Shown in pieces: positions 1 to 12,704 of a stretch of 64,000 bases of DNA. The stretch spans positions 1,421,501 through 1,485,500 of the forward strand of contig NZ_CP117025.1 in NCBI RefSeq assembly GCF_028551275.1, read 5' to 3'. Source of the stretch: Sphingomonas hankookensis. GTDB taxonomy: Bacteria > Pseudomonadota > Alphaproteobacteria > Sphingomonadales > Sphingomonadaceae. Below the pieces are notes generated by a model. The model saw only the letters and a program-made list of their open reading frames with translations, did no database searches and had not been told where the DNA came from. The position numbers were made by a program, and so were the translations under genes. Within the stretch, counting starts at the first letter, position 1; each line of letters opens with the position of its first letter.

Positions 1-3000
1 GGTCGTCCCAGCCATAGGCGGACAGCACCGCGCGATCGATGGCGGCGTGCAGGTCGCGAAGCTCCACGATGTCGGCGTCGGTGTCGGTTGCCCGGTGGAA
101 GCGGTTATAGGTCGGGGTCATGCCCTGATCGCGCGCGATCATCAGTTGCGCGCGGTGGTCGTGGTAGGACTTGCCGGCGGCTTCGAGGGTGGGGTCGGTG
201 TCGAAGGCTGGCGGCAGGGGGAAGGTTTCGAAGCAGTCGGACGGGGTGTAGCGCAGATCGTCCTTCATCGAGGATGCGAAGGCGCGTGCCCAGACTTCGT
301 GGACACGGGATTGCAGCGTGGCGAAGGCGGCCATGGAGTCGAAGGCGAGTACCGACAGGGTGTTACCGAAAAGGCCGTTATTGCCGACGCGGACCAGCGC
401 CCAGTGCGGGGTCGCAGCGCAGCTTGTCACGAACAGACTACTCAGCCTGCGGGTAGCAGCATACAGGCCGGGTCGAGGCGCTTCGTAAAGCCACCAGCGA
501 TCGCGCGTGCGCGGATTGCGCACCGTGTCCCGATACGGCTTCACCACGTTCCGAAGCAGCTCGACTGCTTCGGGAAACCTCGTTTCAGCTTCCTCCAACG
601 ATAGACCGGTAAGGTCGATGGCGTAGCGGAAGGGACGATGGTGAGGGTCGTTATAAACTTCCTCACCGCCCAAGAAGGAGCGGATGACCGCCCGCGATGC
701 CGGTGCGCGCGCAAGTAGTGCGTGCATGGCGGCGATGGTGTTGTCCGGGCTTGCCGGCTTGTCGTCGCGGAACAGGAAGCCAGGGCCGTAAACCTTTGTG
801 CCTTCGAAAGCCGTGCCTGCATTGGCCTGCAATTTAGTTGGTGATCCATCCAGATCGCCCTCCATCAGATAGGCCGAGATGCGGCGGACCGGGCGGCCGT
901 CGAGGATGGGCGGGGTCGTCGTCGCTCCCTTCGTGACGAAGACCTGTGCGACGACGACCGCCGCTTCGCCTTCCCAGACGTGGCGGCTGACGGCGCGGGT
1001 GATGGTGCCGCCGTCGGCGAGGATGCGGGTGAGGCCGGTGTCGCGGGTGTCGCCCTGCCGGATGGTGTTGGTCGCGATCAGGCCAAACGCGCCGCCGATG
1101 CGCAACAGGCTGAACGCGCGGCGGAAGAAATGGGCGGCGAGATCGGCATTGCCGTGCGCGCCGTCGTGCAGCGTCTTGAGCCAGTCGGGATAGGCGGCGG
1201 CATTGCCCGCCGCGATGGTGTTCTTGCCGGCGAAGGGCGGGTTGCCGATGATCGCGTCAAATCCGGGATTGGGGCGGCTGAAAACGTCCTCGAACGCGAG
1301 TTCCCAGTGGAACGCCTCGATCCCGATCGGGGGAGCGCGGAGAGCCGCCTGCCATGTCGCCAGTTGCGCCCAGCTTTCGGGGGTGGGGGCGAGGACGCAT
1401 TGCTGCACCTCGGCCAGTTTTGCCGCGCGGTCGCGGGTCTTGTTGGCGGCGAAGTAGGACCAGAGTATCGCATCGGCGACGAGATGCGCCCGGGTGAGCG
1501 CGGTGGTTGCCGCCCGGTGCCGGCGTTCCTGCGCGGCATAGGGGGCGATCTCCGCCTCCTGCCGCATCAGCCGGCGCAGTTCGGCGGCGGCGTCGATGCC
1601 GTCGCGCACGATCGCCTCGACAAAGCCGTGCTGGCGCGAGACGCGGTCCCAGGTCACCGCGACGATCTTTGGATTGGGCAGGCCGACCAGGCTGTCGCCC
1701 GAGCGCAGTACCGCGTCGAGAAAGGTGAATTCGTGCGCGCTGGCCAGCGTCTCCAGCCAGAGCGAGAGTTTCGCCAGGTCGATGGCGAGGGGGTTGCGGT
1801 CGACGCCGCGCAGGCAGTGCTGCGCCACCAGCCGCTTGGCATGCAGCAGTTCGTCCTCGTCCGCCGGGATGGTCGGGCGCTGCGCGGGCCAGCGGGTCCA
1901 GGCGGCGACGAGGCGTTCGCCGAGCTGGCGGCACGCCTCCACCAGGAACGCGCCCGATCCGGCGGCGGGGTCGCAGACCTTCAGGTCGATCACGTCGGCG
2001 GGGCCGGCATCGGGACCGATGCGGGCGAAGGCGGGGGCAAGGGCATGGGCGACGATCGGGCCGGTCAGGCTGGGCGGGGTATAGTGGCTGCCGGTGCGGC
2101 GGCGTTCCTCGGTCGGTTGCAGGATCGGCGTGCCGGCCGCGACCGGATGGCCGCGCGGCGCGGCGCGGTGGTCGGCGACGGGGGCGAGGGCGGCGGCGAG
2201 CGACGTCGCGTCGGTGGCGGTGCGTAGCGCGCGGGAAACTGCGGTCGGCCAGCCGCTGCGGCCGGTGGCGGTCTTCAGCCACTTCTCGCGCTCGCTGGCC
2301 GGTGTGGCGGCAAGGGCCGATAGGTCGACCCAAACCGGCACGCGGTTCGCCTTGCCCGCGCGGATCGCCAGCATCGCCGCGGGGGCGCACTCGGCGGTGA
2401 AGCCCATCACGGTTTCATAGACCGACCCGATCTGTTCGACGCTGAGCGCGCGATAGTGGAGCCGTTCGCCTTGGTCGATCAGCAGCGCGTCGAGCATGCG
2501 CAGCACACAGCCGTCGCCGACCGGCAGCACCGCTTCCGGATCGTCGGGGCTGTCACGGCCGAGCAGGAAGGGGAAGGCGTCCTCGTCGAACAGCTTGCCG
2601 CCGCGCGCCTGCATGAATCCCGACGGATCGCCGCGCCCGACCAAGCGGAACAGCGCGATCAGCTGCCCCCAGGCGCCGCGGCGTTCGTCCATTATGTCGG
2701 GATAGAGCGCGGCATCGTCGCGCAGCCGCAGGTGGAGCGCGCCCAGCGCATAGCCCTGTTCGTACAGCGTCGCCGCCGCGCCGCCGGGCTGCGAGGGCAT
2801 CAGCGCGCGATCCTCGGCATAGAGAATGAAGATCAGGCGGAGCAGGACGGTCAGGAGGCCTTCGTAGAGATGCTGCGGCCGGTGTTCGGCGAGCGCGCGG
2901 ATGCGGGCGGGATCGGCGGCGTCGAGACCGCGCAGCAGTTCGTGCAGCGAGGCGAGCACCTGAACGGCGAGGCGGCTCGATACGTCGGCCTGCGCGGCAC

Positions 3001-3670
3001 GGCTTTCGGCGAGGAGCGCGGGGAGGCGGTGCGAGGGCGGGCCGGTGAAGAGGGCATGGGTATCGAGCAGCAGCTTCAACCCCGCCAGCATGCCGCGCCC
3101 GGCGACATCGGACAGGGCGTGGAGCGGCCAGCTCATATGGCCCGACACTTCGCCGCGCGGGGCGACGACGAGGCGCAGGATCGGTTCGACGGTCGCGCCT
3201 TCGCGGCGGCCGGTTTCGCGCGACCCAAGGATGACGCCCGCGCCGATGCCGGTTTCGCGCAGGAGGCGTTCGAAGCGTTGCTGCGCCGTCGCCTCCCATC
3301 CATCGAGCGTGCCGCGCCGGTCGAGCAGCAGCCCCGGCGCCTCGATCCGCACCAGCAGTTGCGGGGTGCCGTCCGCCGCCAGCACCGCCCAGTCGGGTTC
3401 GAGCAGGACGTCGAGTTCGGGGAAGGCGATGCGCAGCGTGTCGGGCAGGGCGGGGCCGCCGGGCGCTCCGGCGACGCGTGCCGCCGGCCAGCCGAGAACG
3501 TCGCGGAAGAACGGCCACGGATCGGGTTCGGCCAGCGCCGCTGCCACCCCCGCGCTGTCGGCGGCGTCCTGCGGCGTGACCCATGCGCCGATGCGAGTCA
3601 GCGCCGCGGGGGCGACGACCAGCCCGACTGGCTGGAGGTAGCCGATCCAGTCGTGGGGACCGGTGGTCAT
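1..3670 (-). CDS. Eco57I-type N6-adenine DNA methylase, DrmMI-like (C-terminus beyond the window)
   Basis: A stop-free frame runs from the ATG at 3670 to the window edge, giving at least 1223 residues. Visible motifs: a GSHYTPP segment typical of this class just before the SAM site; motif I DPAAGSGAF at about residues 565-573; catalytic motif IV NPPF at about residue 810. Gamma-class adenine methylases of this type place the target recognition domain after motif IV, here about residues 930-1080. The first 480 residues carry a degenerate PD...E-A-P stretch (P92-D93, E110) where a PD-(D/E)xK nuclease would have E-x-K, so nuclease activity there is unlikely. The ATG overlaps the stop of the upstream SNF2 helicase gene (ATGA), so the two are translationally coupled. 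Family knowledge: DrmMI of DISARM and PglX of BREX are such methylases. DrmMI fits best because a SNF2 helicase precedes it. The recognition sequence cannot be read from this. Confidence 0.85.
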   Translation of the reverse strand, partial: MTTGPHDWIGYLQPVGLVVAPAALTRIGAWVTPQDAADSAGVAAALAEPDPWPFFRDVLGWPAARVAGAPGGPALPDTLRIAFPELDVLLEPDWAVLAADGTPQLLVRIEAPGLLLDRRGTLDGWEATAQQRFERLLRETGIGAGVILGSRETGRREGATVEPILRLVVAPRGEVSGHMSWPLHALSDVAGRGMLAGLKLLLDTHALFTGPPSHRLPALLAESRAAQADVSSRLAVQVLASLHELLRGLDAADPARIRALAEHRPQHLYEGLLTVLLRLIFILYAEDRALMPSQPGGAAATLYEQGYALGALHLRLRDDAALYPDIMDERRGAWGQLIALFRLVGRGDPSGFMQARGGKLFDEDAFPFLLGRDSPDDPEAVLPVGDGCVLRMLDALLIDQGERLHYRALSVEQIGSVYETVMGFTAECAPAAMLAIRAGKANRVPVWVDLSALAATPASEREKWLKTATGRSGWPTAVSRALRTATDATSLAAALAPVADHRAAPRGHPVAAGTPILQPTEERRRTGSHYTPPSLTGPIVAHALAPAFARIGPDAGPADVIDLKVCDPAAGSGAFLVEACRQLGERLVAAWTRWPAQRPTIPADEDELLHAKRLVAQHCLRGVDRNPLAIDLAKLSLWLETLASAHEFTFLDAVLRSGDSLVGLPNPKIVAVTWDRVSRQHGFVEAIVRDGIDAAAELRRLMRQEAEIAPYAAQERRHRAATTALTRAHLVADAILWSYFAANKTRDRAAKLAEVQQCVLAPTPESWAQLATWQAALRAPPIGIEAFHWELAFEDVFSRPNPGFDAIIGNPPFAGKNTIAAGNAAAYPDWLKTLHDGAHGNADLAAHFFRRAFSLLRIGGAFGLIATNTIRQGDTRDTGLTRILADGGTITRAVSRHVWEGEAAVVVAQVFVTKGATTTPPILDGRPVRRISAYLMEGDLDGSPTKLQANAGTAFEGTKVYGPGFLFRDDKPASPDNTIAAMHALLARAPASRAVIRSFLGGEEVYNDPHHRPFRYAIDLTGLSLEEAETRFPEAVELLRNVVKPYRDTVRNPRTRDRWWLYEAPRPGLYAATRRLSSLFVTSCAATPHWALVRVGNNGLFGNTLSVLAFDSMAAFATLQSRVHEVWARAFASSMKDDLRYTPSDCFETFPLPPAFDTDPTLEAAGKSYHDHRAQLMIARDQGMTPTYNRFHRATDTDADIVELRDLHAAIDRAVLSAYGWDD

Positions 3671-6600
3671 GCCGTCGGCCAGAGATAGACCAGCCCGATC
3701 GGCTCCAGCCGGGTGGCGTGGATGCGGGCGGCGGCGCGGAGGCGTTCGGGTTCGCGGACCAGTTCGTCGTCGAGCCGGGTGGCGGCGCGATCCCAGGAGC
3801 GGCGGTCGGCGGCGCGCTGCCGTGCTTCCGCAGGGTCAAGCAGCAGGTCAAGCTGTCCGGTATCGGACCCGCGTTCGCGCAGGATCCGGGCGATGCGCTG
3901 TTTGAGCAGCGTCTCCAGCCCCTGCGCCTCGGCAGCGGCGCGGCGGGTGAGGTCCTGCGCGACACGGGCGGCACGGGCGTCGGCGCGTTCGGTCAGCGCG
4001 GGGCGGAGGTCGGCGACGTTGCGCGCGGCGTGGGCGGTCGCGATGCGCACGGTGTCGGGGTCGGCGTCGGTCGCGTCGCGCAGCGCGGCCAGCAGTTCGT
4101 CCAGCACGCGCGCTTCCGCCTCGCGTCCTTCGGCGAGCGGACGCAACGGGGCGTCGTCGCGCCAGTCGGCGGCGACGCTCAGCACTTCCTCATGCAGCCG
4201 GGCTGCATGTTCGCCGTAGAGGGCGAGGCGGCCGAGCAGGACGACACGGGGGCTGGCGGTGGTCGCGGTGCGGATGACGCAGCAACGCTCCAGCCCCTGC
4301 CGGAACCCGGCCGACAGGAACCGGCCGAGGAGGCGTCGGACGAGGCGGTGTTCGAGGTGAAGCTGTACAACATCGCCGGCGTCGCGGCCGTCGTGCAGGA
4401 TCGCGGGCGCGAAGCTGATGCGGCGGACGGCGGCGTCGGGACTGGCGCGCCATTCGCCGGGACGCTCGCCGGGCCGGACGGGGCGTGCGCGCAGTTCGTC
4501 GATCAGCGGGGTCCAGCTGGGATCGCCGGCGAGGCGCGGTTCGTCGAGCGCGAAGACGGGCGTTTCGCCGACCGTACCGGGCATGGTCCATGCGCCGCCC
4601 GATCGGTTGAGCGCGAGTTCGACCACCGATTGCAGCTCGTCCGGGTCGACGCCGACCCGCGTGCGTGCCTTTTCCAGCGCGCCGGCCAGATCGGCCTGTT
4701 CGCGGCGCAGGCGCGCCAGGCGGGCGTCGGCGGTGTCGTCGAGGTCGCGCACGGCGGCGGCGACGCGGGCATCGGCCTCCGCATCGCGGATGCGGGTGGC
4801 GAGGTCGCGGGCCCCGTCGCGGTCGATGCCGCTGCGGAAACTCTCGGCGATGCGGTCGCCCAATACCTGTCCGGCGGAGCCGAGCTGGCGCCGGATCGCC
4901 TCCGTCTTGCGGACCAGCGCGTCGAGCACGACGTCCTCGGGCCGCTGGGCATAGGTGAAATAGCGGCAGGTGACCGTGTCGGCCGGTTGCAGTTTCCGGT
5001 CGATGCGGCCGTTGCGTTGTTCGAGGCGCGACGGGTTCCAGGGCAGGTCGACATGGATCAGGTCGTGGCACTGCGACTGCAGGTTGATGCCTTCGCGCGC
5101 GGCGTCGGTGCAGATCAGGATGCGAAGCGGGTTGGTCGGATCGTTGAAGGCGCGCTTGATATCCTCGCGCCGTTCGGTCGAGGTGATGCCGGTGAAGCTG
5201 TCGATCCGTTCGGCTTCGTAGGGGTCGGCGGGGTCGGTCAGTACCGAGAGCTGGCGCTGGAGCCAGCGGCGGGTATCCTCATATTCGGTGAACAGGATCA
5301 GCCGCCGGTCGCGCCAGCCGCCATCGGCGTCGAGCAGGTTGGCGCGCGCCCAGTCGACGATCCAGCGGACGCGCGCGTCGGGGGCGGTGCGGGCGGTTTC
5401 GGCCAGCGCCAGCATCGCGGCGGCATGGGCGCGTTCGGCGGCGAGGCGGGCGGGCGGGGTGTCCCGTGCGCCGGCCAGTGCTTCGGCGCGGGCGCGGGCT
5501 TCGTCGCTGCGGTCGAGCAGGTCGAGCGCGGTGTCCTCCTGCGCGGCGAGGTCAGGGGCGTCGGGTTCGGGGTCTTCGACCGGCGTGGTCGCTGCCGCCC
5601 CGGCGATGGCGCGGTCGAGGCCGTCAATATGGACCTTCAGCGTGCGGGCGAAGGCGGGGATCGAGGAGAGGAGGCGCTGTTGCAGGCCGACGAAGCCGAG
5701 GCGTGCCTGCGCGCGGCGGGCGGGGGGCAGGGTGGCGATCCGCGCCTCGCGCAGGGCGCGATAGTCGGCGAGCATCGCGGCGAGCGCGAGTTCGGGGGCG
5801 GTTTCCGGCAGATGGTCGAGGACGATCGGTTCGACCAGGCGTTCGGGGAAGCGTTCGCCGAGTGCGCGCAGGTCGCTTTTGAGGCGGCGGACCATGACCG
5901 GTTCGAGGTCTGCGGGCCGCAGCGCGACCCCGCGCGTGAAGCGCTGCGGATCAAGCAGTTCGAGCAGGGTGGCGAAGCTGTTCGGGTGGCCGTTATGCGG
6001 TGTCGCCGAGAGGAACAGCCGATGTTCGAACCGGTCGGACAGGTCGCGTAAGGATCGGGTGAACTGGCTTTCGATCGCATAGCGCCCGCCACCGGACGGG
6101 GCGGCATGATGCGCCTCGTCAAGGATCAGCAGCGAGCGGGCGCGAAAATCCTCCAGCACGTCGCGCAACGGAGCGACATAGGCTTCGTCGCCCAGCAGCC
6201 GGTGCGACAGGATGAAGCGCGATCCCGAGCCCCAAGGGTTCGCGCCATAGCCGCGACGGCGGCGCAGCGCTTCGAGATGGCGGGCGTCGATGATGTCGAA
6301 GGCGAGGCCGAACTTGCTCTGCAATTCGTCGCGCCACTGGCCGGTCATCGCGGCCGGGGCGAGGACGACGGTATAATCGACGCGGCGGCGCAGCAGCATC
6401 TCGCGCAGCACCAGCCCGGCCTCGACCGTCTTGCCCAAGCCCACATCGTCGGCGATCAGCAGGTTGACGCGCGGCAGGCGCAGCGCCTTGCGTAAGGGCA
6501 GCAGCTGATAGGGATCGAGCCGGATGCCGGCGCGGAACGGCGCCTGGAACAGGTCGCGTTCGGCCGCGGTCGCGGTGCGCCAGCGGACGGTGCGCAGATA

Positions 6601-6861
6601 GGCGGAGAAGCTGGCGGCATCGCCGCCGAGCACGCCGCCTTCGCGGCCGAGCGAGGCCCATGCCTCCTCATCGTGCAGCCGCGCGTCGACCTCCGCGCTC
6701 CACAGTATGCGGGCATCCTCGCCGCTGGCGTCGTCGTCGATGCAGGCGAGGCGGTGGCCGTCATAGGGGCCGTCGGGCTGCGCCTCGACCATCCACAGCC
6801 GCCCGCGCAGCGACACGAACTGGCCGACGCCGGGCTGGGGCGTGCGGATGCTGCTGGCCAT
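3667..6861 (-). CDS. SNF2-family DEAD/DEAH helicase, DrmD-like
   Basis: 1064 residues with a full superfamily 2 helicase core: Walker A DVGLGKT at 139-145, DEAHH at 248-252, the SATPHNG motif III, and in the second lobe REGINLQ and QRNGRIDR (motifs V and VI). A long C-terminal part rich in Ala, Arg and Asp follows the helicase domains. I chose the ATG at 6861 because the protein then starts just before a conserved-looking PGVGQFVSLRG segment and a GAGGGG-like ribosome site precedes it; the longer frame to 7008 runs through a repeat palindrome. The stop overlaps the start of the methylase gene. Family knowledge: DrmD of class 1 DISARM and BrxHII of BREX type 3 are SNF2-type helicases near adenine methylases. 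The helicase-then-methylase order matches class 1 DISARM, but drmA, drmB and drmC are not in this window and may lie to the left. Confidence 0.85.
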   Translation of the reverse strand: MASSIRTPQPGVGQFVSLRGRLWMVEAQPDGPYDGHRLACIDDDASGEDARILWSAEVDARLHDEEAWASLGREGGVLGGDAASFSAYLRTVRWRTATAAERDLFQAPFRAGIRLDPYQLLPLRKALRLPRVNLLIADDVGLGKTVEAGLVLREMLLRRRVDYTVVLAPAAMTGQWRDELQSKFGLAFDIIDARHLEALRRRRGYGANPWGSGSRFILSHRLLGDEAYVAPLRDVLEDFRARSLLILDEAHHAAPSGGGRYAIESQFTRSLRDLSDRFEHRLFLSATPHNGHPNSFATLLELLDPQRFTRGVALRPADLEPVMVRRLKSDLRALGERFPERLVEPIVLDHLPETAPELALAAMLADYRALREARIATLPPARRAQARLGFVGLQQRLLSSIPAFARTLKVHIDGLDRAIAGAAATTPVEDPEPDAPDLAAQEDTALDLLDRSDEARARAEALAGARDTPPARLAAERAHAAAMLALAETARTAPDARVRWIVDWARANLLDADGGWRDRRLILFTEYEDTRRWLQRQLSVLTDPADPYEAERIDSFTGITSTERREDIKRAFNDPTNPLRILICTDAAREGINLQSQCHDLIHVDLPWNPSRLEQRNGRIDRKLQPADTVTCRYFTYAQRPEDVVLDALVRKTEAIRRQLGSAGQVLGDRIAESFRSGIDRDGARDLATRIRDAEADARVAAAVRDLDDTADARLARLRREQADLAGALEKARTRVGVDPDELQSVVELALNRSGGAWTMPGTVGETPVFALDEPRLAGDPSWTPLIDELRARPVRPGERPGEWRASPDAAVRRISFAPAILHDGRDAGDVVQLHLEHRLVRRLLGRFLSAGFRQGLERCCVIRTATTASPRVVLLGRLALYGEHAARLHEEVLSVAADWRDDAPLRPLAEGREAEARVLDELLAALRDATDADPDTVRIATAHAARNVADLRPALTERADARAARVAQDLTRRAAAEAQGLETLLKQRIARILRERGSDTGQLDLLLDPAEARQRAADRRSWDRAATRLDDELVREPERLRAAARIHATRLEPIGLVYLWPTA

Positions 6862-7002
6862 GACGGTTCCCCTCTCGGGCGCGAGGGTGGGGGGCGGGGG
6901 CGGGGGTGCCAATGGCGGTTGGGTCCGGTTTCGCGGTGATGGGCGTCGTTGGGATATTCTTCCCGAACAGGTGGAGGATGATCCGTTGGTCAAAAGCCCA
7001 TC

Positions 7003-7088
7003 CGTCACCCCGGACTTGATCCGGGGTCCCGCTTGCCTGCGCGGGCGTGGCAGAAGAAGGGGGACCCCGGATCAAGTCCGGGGTGACG
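7003..7088. repeat. REP-like palindrome, family A, between divergent defence genes
   Basis: Two arms of about 32 nt in inverted orientation, beginning CGTCACCCCGGACTTGATCC, with a short spacer. The same palindrome recurs complete at 17018-17105 and 43941-44025 and as half copies at 12576-12608, 42331-42365 and 58625-58647. It occupies the 329-base gap between the helicase start and the Cas3-like start. The rest of that gap shows no gene and should hold the promoters of both. Confidence 0.85.
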
Positions 7089-7190
7089 AGGGGGGGCGGG
7101 TCGTCGCTGAATGTCGGCCGGTCACTTCCGGAACATCCGTTTCGGATCAATTGCCTTGCCGCGAACGCCGGTAGCGTCGACCATGCCGGG

Positions 7191-9710
7191 ATGGAGATGC
7201 CGATGATGCCCGACCTGCAACGCCCCTGGGCCAAGCTGTTGCGGAACGAGGAGAAGGTCGTGGTGGCCGCGCTGCCGCTGGTCGATCATTGCCTCGACGT
7301 CGGGGCGGTGGCGGAGATCGTCTTGCAGGCGTGGCGCGGTCCGCTGGAGGCGGCGGCGGGGCGGGCGCTCGGCGAGCAGGATATCTCGCGATTGGCGGTG
7401 CTGGCGGCGCTGCACGATCTGGGCAAGGCCAATCGCGGGTTTCAGGCGCGGATCGATCCGGCGGCGGAGTTGATCGGTCATACCGGCCAGGTCGCCGCAC
7501 TGCTGAACCATTCGAAGCTCAAGCGGACGCCGGCGGCGGTCGCGTTGCAGGCGATGATCGACGACTGGGATGCCGAACAGCATTTCGCGGCGGTGATGGC
7601 GCATCATGGCAAGCCGCTGGGCGAGTTTCACGAAGCGGCGACGTCGCTCGATTGGGGCAGGCATAACCGGCATTGGATGCCCGAGGGGGACGGCGATCCT
7701 GCTGCCGCCGTCGTGCCGCTGATCGAGGCGGTTCGCGAACGCTGGCCGCGGGCGTGGGAGGCCGGGCCGCCACTCCCGTTGGCGCCGCGCTTCGTGGCGT
7801 TGTTTGCCGGGCTGGTGACGCTGGCGGACTGGCTGGGATCGGACAGCAAGCGCTTTCCGGTGGCGGGGCCGCATGGTGCAGAGCGGGTCGCCCTGCGGGC
7901 GGAGGCGGCGCTGGCGGCGGCGGAGGCGCGGGGGCTGCTGGCGCTCGACACGCCGGCGGGCGATTTCGTCGCGGCATTCGGCAATGCGCCCTACGACTTT
8001 CAGACGGCGGCGGGCGATTGGGGGCCGGTCGCGCTGATCGAGGCGGAGACGGGGTCGGGCAAGACCGAGGCGGCGCTGTGGCGCTGGCTGGAGCTGCGGC
8101 GCGCGGGACAGGTCGACGGGCTGTTCTTCGCGCTGCCGACCCGGTCGGCGGCGGTGCAGTTGCAGCGGCGGGTCGATGCGATGCTGACCTCGGTATGGGG
8201 GGCGGATGGTCCCCGCGCGGTGCTGGCGGTGCCGGGGTATCTGAAGGCGGGCGATGCGAGCGGGCAGGCGTTGCCGGGCTATGCGGTGCGCTGGGACGAT
8301 GGCGCCACGGGCGAGGAGCGGTGGGCGGCGGAGCGGGCCAATCGTTTTCTGGCGGCGCGGGTGGCGGTGGGGACGATCGATCAGGCGTTGCTGGGGGTCC
8401 TGCCGGTCAAGCATGCGCTGTTCCGGTCCAGCGTGCTGGCGCGCAGCCTTTTGGTGGTCGACGAGGTCCATGCGTCGGATGCCTATATGACCGGGCTGCT
8501 CGAACGGCTGCTCGACCAGCATGGCGCGGCGGGCGGGAAGGCGTTGCTGCTGTCGGCGACGCTGGGATCGGGCGCGCGGGCGCGGCTGTTGCGGCAGACG
8601 CCACTGTCGCCCGAAGCGGCGGAGGCAGTGCCCTATCCGGCGTTGTCGGGGCGCGGCGTGGCACCGCGGGCGGCGCGCGGGGCGACCGGACGCGACAAGC
8701 AGGTCAGGGTCGAGGTCGCGCCGATCATGGAGGATGCGTCGGCGATCGCGATGCGGGCGGTGGAGGCGGCGCGCGACGGGGCGGCGGTGCTGGTGGTGCG
8801 CAACAGCGTGGCCGGGGCGGTCGCGGTGGCGCAGGCGGTGGCGGAGCTGGCGCCCGAACTGGCCTTTGCGGTGGAGGGGGTGGCGACGGTCCATCATGGG
8901 CGCTTTGCGGCGACGGACCGCGAAAGGCTGGACACGGCGGTGACCGCGGCGTTCGGCAAGGGGCGCGGGCGTGGCGGGCGGGTGCTGGTGGGCACGCAGA
9001 CGCTGGAACAGTCGCTCGACATCGATGCCGATCTGCTGCTGACCGATCTCGCGCCGGTCGACGTGCTGCTGCAACGGATCGGGCGGTTGCATCGGCATGC
9101 TCGGGCGGAGCGGGGGGCGTTTGCGGAGGCGCGGGCGATCGTGCTGCGGCCGGCGGAGCGGGATTTGACGCCGTTGCTGAAGGGGCGGGCGCTGCACGGG
9201 CTGGGCGGGGCGAGGCGGGTGGCGCCCTATCCCGACCTGTTGCCGGTCGAGGCGACGCTGGCGCTGCTGGAGGACCGGCCGGACATCGCCATTCCGCGCG
9301 ACAATCGGCTGCTGGTCGAACGGGCGCTGCATCCCGAACTGCTCGACGCACTGGCGGAGCGGCTGGGGGTGGCGTGGCAGAACCACCGCAACGAGCGCAA
9401 CGGCGGCGCGGCGGTCGATGCCCAGGCGGCGGGGCAGGTGGCGCTGGACTTCCGGCGGCGCTTTACCGAATGGCTGCCGTTCGACGGGGGCGAGGCGGTG
9501 GCGACGCGGCTGGGTGCGCGCGACCTGCTGGTCGATCTGGCGCAGCCGTTGGCCGGGGCGTTCGGGGGGACTGTCGACCGGATCGCCATTCCGGCGTGGA
9601 TGGCGCCGGGCGTCGGGGATGCGGCGGTCGAGGCGAGAGATGCGCATGGGTTCTCGATCGGGTCGTATCGCTTCGCCTATGACCAGTGGGGCCTGCGCAA
9701 GGCCGATTGA
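7191..9710 (+). CDS. Cas3-like HD-nuclease/helicase, no Cascade genes nearby
   Basis: 839 residues from the ATG at 7191. The N-terminal HD phosphohydrolase domain shows H33, the H75-D76 pair in AALHDLGK, H97 and the H138-H139-G motif, all expected metal ligands of Cas3 nucleases. A superfamily 2 helicase follows with Walker A ETGSGKTEAA, Walker B DEVHASDAYM (the usual Cas3 form is DEVHAYD), SATL motif III and QRIGRLHRH motif VI. A Cas3-type C-terminal region ends at the stop. The start is uncertain: the ATG pair at 7203 has a GGAG six bases upstream and could be the true start. Family knowledge: Cas3 is the effector nuclease of type I CRISPR-Cas and works with Cascade. Here an AmpG-like permease follows and no cas1, cas2, Cascade gene or repeat array is seen to the right, so a CRISPR-independent role with the divergent helicase/methylase pair is inferred. 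Confidence 0.88.
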   Translation: MEMPMMPDLQRPWAKLLRNEEKVVVAALPLVDHCLDVGAVAEIVLQAWRGPLEAAAGRALGEQDISRLAVLAALHDLGKANRGFQARIDPAAELIGHTGQVAALLNHSKLKRTPAAVALQAMIDDWDAEQHFAAVMAHHGKPLGEFHEAATSLDWGRHNRHWMPEGDGDPAAAVVPLIEAVRERWPRAWEAGPPLPLAPRFVALFAGLVTLADWLGSDSKRFPVAGPHGAERVALRAEAALAAAEARGLLALDTPAGDFVAAFGNAPYDFQTAAGDWGPVALIEAETGSGKTEAALWRWLELRRAGQVDGLFFALPTRSAAVQLQRRVDAMLTSVWGADGPRAVLAVPGYLKAGDASGQALPGYAVRWDDGATGEERWAAERANRFLAARVAVGTIDQALLGVLPVKHALFRSSVLARSLLVVDEVHASDAYMTGLLERLLDQHGAAGGKALLLSATLGSGARARLLRQTPLSPEAAEAVPYPALSGRGVAPRAARGATGRDKQVRVEVAPIMEDASAIAMRAVEAARDGAAVLVVRNSVAGAVAVAQAVAELAPELAFAVEGVATVHHGRFAATDRERLDTAVTAAFGKGRGRGGRVLVGTQTLEQSLDIDADLLLTDLAPVDVLLQRIGRLHRHARAERGAFAEARAIVLRPAERDLTPLLKGRALHGLGGARRVAPYPDLLPVEATLALLEDRPDIAIPRDNRLLVERALHPELLDALAERLGVAWQNHRNERNGGAAVDAQAAGQVALDFRRRFTEWLPFDGGEAVATRLGARDLLVDLAQPLAGAFGGTVDRIAIPAWMAPGVGDAAVEARDAHGFSIGSYRFAYDQWGLRKAD

Positions 9711-12311: not shown

Positions 12312-12704
12312 TGGATTTGGGGGGCAAAGTTCACTAAGTTCACACTCGTGGCGGTTTTGGGTGGCGTTTGGTTTGGGGCGGGTTGCGGCGGTTCGAAAGA
12401 GCGTCCGCAGGGTTAGCTGAGGCGGCGTTTGTAGGAAAGCAGAGGGTTCGTCGCTTCTACGTGGGCCGGGGCCTCGTGTGGCGAGGCACGCGCTTCGCTA
12501 CGGGGAGATCCCAGCCTTGGCTGGGATGACGTTTGGGGCCGGAATGGAGGCGGCGTTTCGGCTTTTGCGGAAGAAGAAGCGGGACCCCGGATCAAGTCCG
12601 GGGTGACGGTCGGGGAGCGTACCCCCGCGTAGGCGGGGGTTCAGATCCGCGGGCGGTGTCGTTTGTTGCCCTGGGCCCCCGCCTTCGCGGGGGTACGGTG
12701 CGCC
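12312..12704. other. Gene-free stretch with three REP-like elements
   Basis: A 393-base gap between convergent genes (serine hydrolase and LysR regulator). 12504-12531 is a short palindrome built on ATCCCAGCC/GGCTGGGAT, 12576-12608 is a half copy of family A, and 12618-12698 is a full family B palindrome ending in CGGGGGTACGG. The first 190 bases show no gene or recognisable signal. Confidence 0.8.

Follow-up and report, generated by a model that had tools for sequence, protein, structure and literature searches.

A class 1 DISARM system without drmC within a type I-E CRISPR-Cas locus of Sphingomonas, between cas3 and cas8e

At one edge of a 64,000-nucleotide stretch of the Sphingomonas hankookensis genome (G000:C1:1421501-1485500, here called the window), genes for an adenine methyltransferase, an SNF2-type helicase and a Cas3-like protein lie side by side, which raises the question whether they form a defense system of their own. 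The left flank was fetched in addition; position p in the record L004 corresponds to window position p - 20000. The three reading frames had been placed correctly in the initial annotation, and the overlap and the gap that it described were confirmed on the sequence. The methyltransferase gene (window 1..3670, minus strand) runs past the left edge, with 1223 of its 1275 codons, counted from the N-terminus, inside the window and the C-terminus 157 bases beyond it; with the left flank added the gene is complete at 1275 aa (L005:8843-12670). Its start overlaps the stop of the helicase gene (window 3667..6861, minus strand) as ATGA (3667-3670). The Cas3-like gene (window 7191..9710, plus strand) diverges from the helicase gene across exactly 329 bases (window 6862..7190). 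Inspection of the open reading frames gave ATG codons at 6861 and 7191 as the best starts of the two divergent genes.

The helicase-then-methylase order had been likened to drmD-drmMI of class 1 DISARM, and PADLOC and NCBIfam profiles agree with this. The helicase matched the NCBIfam profile NF038317 (DISARM_DrmD) with 941.7 bits (cut-off 610) and DrmD of PADLOC at 1e-275. The methyltransferase matched PADLOC PDLC02643 (DrmMI) with 1062.6 bits (E=0) and carries the Pfam domains Eco57I, MmeI methylase and MmeI TRD; the NCBIfam search returned no DrmMI match for this product. A motif scan found its NPPF motif in all 17 relatives examined; the search for methylase motif I, which itself carries no weight, matched none of the 17. 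Membership in a BREX system was rejected, as the PglX profile that had been proposed as a check did not exceed 29 bits (cut-off 900). The Cas3-like protein matched Cas3e of PADLOC (8.6e-159), the Pfam domains Cas3_HD and Cas3-like_C_2 and TIGR01587 (185 bits, cut-off 102), being the sole match above this cut-off in the genome; PRK09694 remained below its cut-off (290.7 against 569). Its catalytic motifs are present according to the motif scan. The profile scores for Cas3e, DrmD and DrmMI are far beyond chance, and judged by its profiles Cas3 belongs to a type I-E system.

The left flank did not bear out the three-component system that had been proposed. Behind drmMI, and on the same strand, follow drmA (L004:16400-19846) and drmB (L004:14544-16403), linked by overlaps, and then a type I-E cas operon with cas8e (L004:12995-14551 for the frame listed), cse2 (L004:12481-13005), cas7e (L004:11255-12583), cas5e (L004:10530-11291), cas6e (L004:9763-10680), cas1e (L004:8878-9762) and cas2e (L004:8567-8878). 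A CRISPR array adjoins cas2e (L004:5375-8560; 51 repeats and 50 spacers with a 61-bp period). DrmA matched NF038325 (DISARM_DrmAS) with 1053 bits (cut-off 950) and DrmB, a DUF1998 protein, NF038324 with 504 bits (cut-off 240). PADLOC identified Cas8e (6e-142), Cas7e (5e-95), Cas5e (4e-40) and Cas6e (9e-27). Cas7e and Cas5e also exceed their NCBIfam cut-offs, as do Cas1e (TIGR03638, 308 bits against 216) and Cas2e (TIGR01873, 97.6 against 33), whereas Cas8e (45.7 of 70), Cse2 (26.2 of 28.5) and Cas6e (38 of 45.2) fall below them, which indicates a divergent branch of type I-E. Thus, the cas3 and cas8e genes of a type I-E system enclose a class 1 DISARM system without drmC. Two arrangements had been named in the initial annotation as speaking against a separate unit. 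The first, a type I cas operon on the left, was found, although behind DISARM; a drmA/drmB/drmC block beside a non-conserved Cas3 gene was found in part, as drmA and drmB are there but drmC is absent and the Cas3 gene is conserved beside them. That the methylase, the SNF2 protein and Cas3 act jointly and independently of drmA, drmB and Cascade is therefore very improbable: the three genes are adjacent and the divergence of cas3 and drmD is preserved, but drmA and drmB are overlap-linked behind drmMI and Cascade occurs in all 17 genomes with an intact drmB. The stand-alone system was rejected on the content of the left flank. Beyond the locus lie metabolic and transport genes, and none of ten flanking open reading frames, some of which may not be genes, had a PADLOC match; thus no wider defense island was seen.

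The distribution of the locus was analyzed at several levels. Among 295 genomes of the genus, DrmB was found in 24, namely 17 at an identity of at least 77%, a remnant in G225, two at 69% (G039 and G172) and four at 33-34%. Cas7e was detected in 18 of the 295, which are exactly the 17 genomes with the closely related DrmB plus G225 (Fisher 7e-27 for co-occurrence, a value that ignores kinship and is a description rather than a test). The twelve genes are contiguous and in one order in 14 of these 18 genomes, two of which (G000, the genome studied here, and G441) represent one species; in the remaining four the locus is cut by contig ends (G529, G631), split over two contigs (G550) or reduced on the DISARM side to the drmB remnant (G225). 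An assembly artefact was rejected on the basis of the identical order in 14 genomes. In relatives, cas3 stands divergent beside drmD in all 16 loci that show both genes. In a survey of the order (396 genomes), DrmA was found in 15 genomes, Cas8e of this type in five and Cas3 of this type, at E 1e-60, in eight. No cas genes were located near drmA in the same-lineage relatives G039, G172, G372 and G065, nor in nine other DrmA loci of this survey. In the type I-E relatives G211, G031 and G006 from outside the genus, cas3 lies directly beside cas8e in the same orientation, and DISARM is absent. In G372 (contig C32, Porphyrobacter sp. SLTP), two equally scoring DISARM copies (L038, L039) lie about 76 kb apart, owing to recent duplication or to assembly error.

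A genome-collection scan with a DrmA alignment gave 584 DISARM loci, of which the best 80 were all examined. Six of these carry cas genes: Sphingomonas Leaf9 (L081), Leaf407 (L076), S. palmae (L077), Ca. S. excrementigallinarum (L075), a contig filed as Bacillus sp. 2B10 (L074) and, with cas3 only, CFBP 8760 (L078). These are not additional genomes but the survey genomes G497, G508, G465, G425, G529 and G550. The locus on the contig recorded as Bacillus sp. 2B10 N54 is this one of Sphingomonas (DrmA 84%), and the contig is probably a contaminant or a misnamed genome. The other 74 of the best 80 loci had no cas genes by tblastn at 1e-5 with the Cas proteins of the genome studied here as the only queries, a search which other CRISPR types could escape. 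A comparable composite was found neither elsewhere in the order survey nor in these 74 loci. The full locus, annotated gene by gene, is also present on the 138,559-bp plasmid NZ_CP155757.1 of S. parapaucimobilis YK209. Among 72,556 plasmid records, Cas8e matched five and DrmB 64, of which 30 were listed; no DrmB relative was found in viral contigs.

Median pairwise dN/dS, obtained by a simple counting method at dS values of 0.6-0.9, amounts to 0.21 for DrmD, 0.28 for DrmMI, 0.21 for DrmA and 0.20 for DrmB, and to 0.35 for Cas3, 0.23 for Cas8e, 0.38 for Cse2, 0.17 for Cas7e, 0.22 for Cas5e, 0.36 for Cas6e, 0.06 for Cas1e and 0.12 for Cas2e. These values are well below 1 in both modules. The helicase and nuclease motifs are conserved apart from those of the Cas3 HD domain of G425 (outside the piece used), the truncated DrmA of G631 and one DrmD motif of G550; Cas3 of G425 was matched as two pieces. 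Premature stops occur in drmA of G496 and G425 and in cas8e of G497 and G500, and the other stops are confined to the ends of the matched stretch, either in its first codons, which precede likely true starts, or in its last. The cas8e stops of G497 (L216) and G500 (L220) share one alignment position in two species but are different stop codons, and 17 other sequences are intact. This shared position reflects either coincidence or selection for losing interference.

DrmA and DrmB of the composite loci form a single clade (support 100/100) that is sister to G172/G039, which indicates one origin and not repeated assembly. G550 branches first in this clade (94/95 and 92/92 for the remainder). Distance matrices were compared for 14 genomes, leaving out G441 (identical), G529 and G631 (partial), G225 (no DISARM) and the plasmid. 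The distances correlate between DISARM and Cascade (r=0.82), DISARM and Cas3 (0.92) and Cascade and Cas3 (0.75), and with those of rpoB for DISARM (0.72) and Cascade (0.76). Given rpoB, the partial correlation is 0.60 for DISARM and Cascade and 0.90 for DISARM and Cas3. Cas3 follows DISARM given Cascade (0.81), but not Cascade given DISARM (-0.01). The 14 cas3-side flanks of useful length fall into three groups, the first comprising the genome studied here, G440, G502, G497, G500 and G505, the second G225, G270 and G465 and the third G470, G644 and the plasmid; the flanks of G414 and G508 have no long match to any of them. The locus thus occupies at least three genomic sites, one of them including the plasmid. 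Because of the rpoB correlations and the several flank groups, inheritance is taken to be in good part vertical, with transfer on top.

Several loci are incomplete. G225 retains cas3, a C-terminal piece of drmB and Cascade, and at the same site as in G225 and G465, G270 retains of drmD only the front, next to a broken cas3, and lacks Cas7e. This locus (L066) is a decayed composite in which the front of drmD is fused to a sensor-kinase-like gene. G183 has a partial cas3 close to a contig end. In G550, cas3-DISARM and Cascade lie on separate contigs with different neighbors, and the only Cas3 match of the genome stands with DISARM. Sequence reading places pilin-like genes behind drmB of this genome, and its Cascade beside a tRNA-like sequence near a resolvase-like gene. 

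The missing drmC was followed in the locus and its relatives. No open reading frame of at least 150 aa with a PLD motif was found in the locus, and PLDc_2 matches occur only elsewhere in the genome; a PLD-motif scan of 18 loci for a DrmC-like gene gave only two frames, both inside other genes. Among the best 80 of the 584 collection loci, 29 with a drmB match held a PLD-motif frame behind drmB, where 65 loci had more than 1.5 kb of room. One of these 29 is the cas7e frame of a composite. The check in relatives comprised this motif scan and ten frames analyzed by profile, among which the frame in L095 proved to be DrmC; no PLD-motif frame was found behind drmB in L079-L094. Thus, the loss of drmC probably predates the composite, and a replacement of drmC by Cas3 becomes less likely. 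Replacement of drmC by Cascade was rejected, since the motif scan and these ten frames showed no drmC behind drmB in the nearest DISARM relatives without cas genes either. In the nearest other DISARM loci, PADLOC identified Lamassu (L080), a Zac protein (L040) and SIR2-pAgo (L109) behind drmB, and no match there in L083, L136, L079 and L152. In these three alphaproteobacterial loci (L080, L040, L109) the place behind drmB looks like a slot for second systems. According to the accessible text of PMC9142583, drmC is dispensable and frequently missing, and how DISARM degrades DNA without it is an open question. The accessible part of a preprint on YprA helicases (PMC12458937) describes DrmC nucleases as often bearing a Cas11-like helical bundle, and in its searched text CRISPR is mentioned solely in the reference list.

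Whether the modules are expressed together was approached from the intergenic regions. No clear shared operator was found in an alignment of the cas3-drmD gaps. In the species studied here this gap contains an inverted pair of a genomic repeat of the GGGGTGAC type (window 7002-7112), which also occurs at window positions 12569, 17017 and 17066. Residue 22 of the frame listed is the most likely start of Cas8e, so that drmB and cas8e do not overlap; the gap between them ranges from 51 to 574 bp across loci and is 58 bp in the genome studied here. In 13 of 17 loci a TTGAC box precedes this start by 46-51 bp (12 inside the scripted window of 43-50, with G425 at 51); in one more it stands at 61, and G505, G414 and G508 have none. 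Because of this box, Cascade probably has its own promoter, which argues against one obligatory transcript. The longest gaps, in G505 (489 bp, L221) and G414 (574 bp, L223), each contain one unit resembling a CRISPR repeat, with 1 and 3 mismatches in 20 bases, respectively. These units are reminiscent of the CreTA RNA modules known from type I systems.

The array consists of 29-bp repeats and 32-bp spacers, and arrays are present in all 17 contiguous or contig-cut composites and on the Cascade contig of G550. Compared with the array of G441 from the same species, 20 spacers are common, the cas2-proximal spacers differ (three here, one in G441) and spacers 18-44 are absent from G441. This suggests recent spacer acquisition at the cas2-proximal end; acquisition at one end combined with internal loss or assembly collapse is the simplest reading of the difference. 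Two of the three newest spacers and one common with G441 were searched as exact 24-base patterns in viral contigs, and none had a match. Against phages the array yielded just one tRNA-matching spacer and weak matches, and the plasmid matches listed were mostly other arrays. Spacer 39 (L004:6071-6105) matches the host tRNA-Val gene (L274) and is thus a self-targeting spacer; it also matches a tRNA fragment without a tRNA call (L276) that may be the attachment site of an integrated element. In the repeats (L004:5375-8560), but not in those of G441, the G runs differ in length, possibly owing to homopolymer sequencing error.

We regard the locus as a co-inherited innate-plus-adaptive composite whose modules cooperate, and give this reading about an even chance. 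DISARM would act as a sequence-unspecific first layer. By family membership, DrmMI is expected to mark self DNA, and DrmAB with DrmD would load on unmarked or single-stranded phage DNA and stall it. Cascade with crRNA is predicted, likewise from its family, to recruit Cas3 and so lead to destruction of DNA matching stored spacers. DNA stalled or opened by DISARM could provide time and substrate for spacer uptake by Cas1-Cas2 and for Cascade. As cas3 and drmD have a short divergent promoter region in common, the supply of Cas3 and DISARM may be co-regulated. A precedent for a related helicase system working with another defense, in the accessible text of PMC13192584, is the synergy of Druantia III and Zorya II via shared DNA intermediates, and cooperation of restriction-modification and CRISPR is a known theme in the literature as far as accessible. 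In favor of this reading were counted the gene content, the order kept in 14 genomes and on the plasmid, the co-occurrence within the genus, the low dN/dS of both modules, the DISARM-Cascade correlation, the several sites occupied, the differing array ends and the lack of PADLOC matches in the flanks. The state of G225 and G550, the probable separate cas8e promoter, the premature stops, the rpoB correlations, the single origin and the absence of such a composite from the rest of the order survey and from the 74 other DISARM loci were counted against cooperation.

Several of these observations would also fit linkage without cooperation, in which DISARM landed once beside cas3 and Cascade in an ancestor and was carried on by descent and segment transfer, each system working alone. 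The composite is monophyletic, its correlation with rpoB could be accounted for by mostly vertical descent, cas8e has a likely promoter of its own, CRISPR-Cas persists in G225 with a mere drmB remnant, and Cascade is split from DISARM in G550. Moreover, the second systems behind drmB of the closest other DISARM loci follow the usual pattern of defense islands. However, defense-island neighbors usually turn over, yet 14 genomes hold the twelve genes in one order. DISARM also sits inside the other system and not beside it, Cascade accompanies every intact drmB of this DISARM clade (17 of 17), and several sites and a plasmid are occupied. Independent action is thus a possible explanation, to which about one chance in three may be conceded. 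A more far-reaching proposal is that Cas3 serves both as the nuclease of Cascade and as the recruited nuclease of a DISARM system that lacks drmC. This would fit the absence of a DrmC-like gene from the locus by the scan of 18 loci, the partial correlations, in which Cas3 tracks DISARM and not Cascade, and the position of the sole Cas3 of G550, the first branch of the DrmA tree, beside DISARM with Cascade elsewhere. Structural work on DISARM, as far as accessible in PMC9142583, reported a preference for 5' overhangs and proposed recruitment of an outside nuclease. On the other hand, cas3 adjoins drmD, so that the correlation is explained by a common recombination history. The genome also has genes for PLD proteins at other places, and G225 keeps cas3 without DISARM. 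For the sister DISARM systems of G172 and G039 the search gave no Cas3 match at all, nor was a DrmC seen behind drmB; this DISARM lineage thus lacked drmC without needing Cas3. A shared Cas3 is accordingly unlikely. The same low probability applies to Cas3 as a common executioner, to which unmarked phage DNA stalled by DrmAB and DrmD would be handed over for degradation, feeding Cas1-Cas2; if true, an innate system would drive adaptive memory. On this reading cas3 and DISARM could have come together first, the state seen in G550, before Cascade was added.

Both DISARM and type I-E systems are known separately, and their combination in one locus would be new; no description of it was found in the literature searched, which includes the accessible text of PMC9142583 and PMC12458937 and leaves most subscription papers outside its reach. 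Innate and adaptive immunity of bacteria are usually studied apart. This conserved locus provides a natural test of whether the two work as one unit. Because it also occurs in culturable leaf Sphingomonas, cooperation, a shared Cas3 and DISARM-fed spacer acquisition are testable in one locus. Class 1 DISARM has the gene order drmD-drmMI-drmA-drmB-drmC. The locus shares four of these five genes (drmD, drmMI, drmA and drmB) in the order of the class, but differs in lacking drmC and in carrying a type I-E cas operon behind drmB and a divergent cas3 before drmD. With all eight cas genes and an array of 29-bp repeats and 32-bp spacers it resembles type I-E CRISPR-Cas, but about 14 kb of DISARM genes lie between its divergent cas3 and cas8e, whereas these two genes adjoin each other in one direction in G211, G031 and G006; such adjacency is not treated as defining the type. 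Like a defense island, the locus brings several defense systems together, but it nests one in the other and keeps their order in 14 genomes and on a plasmid.
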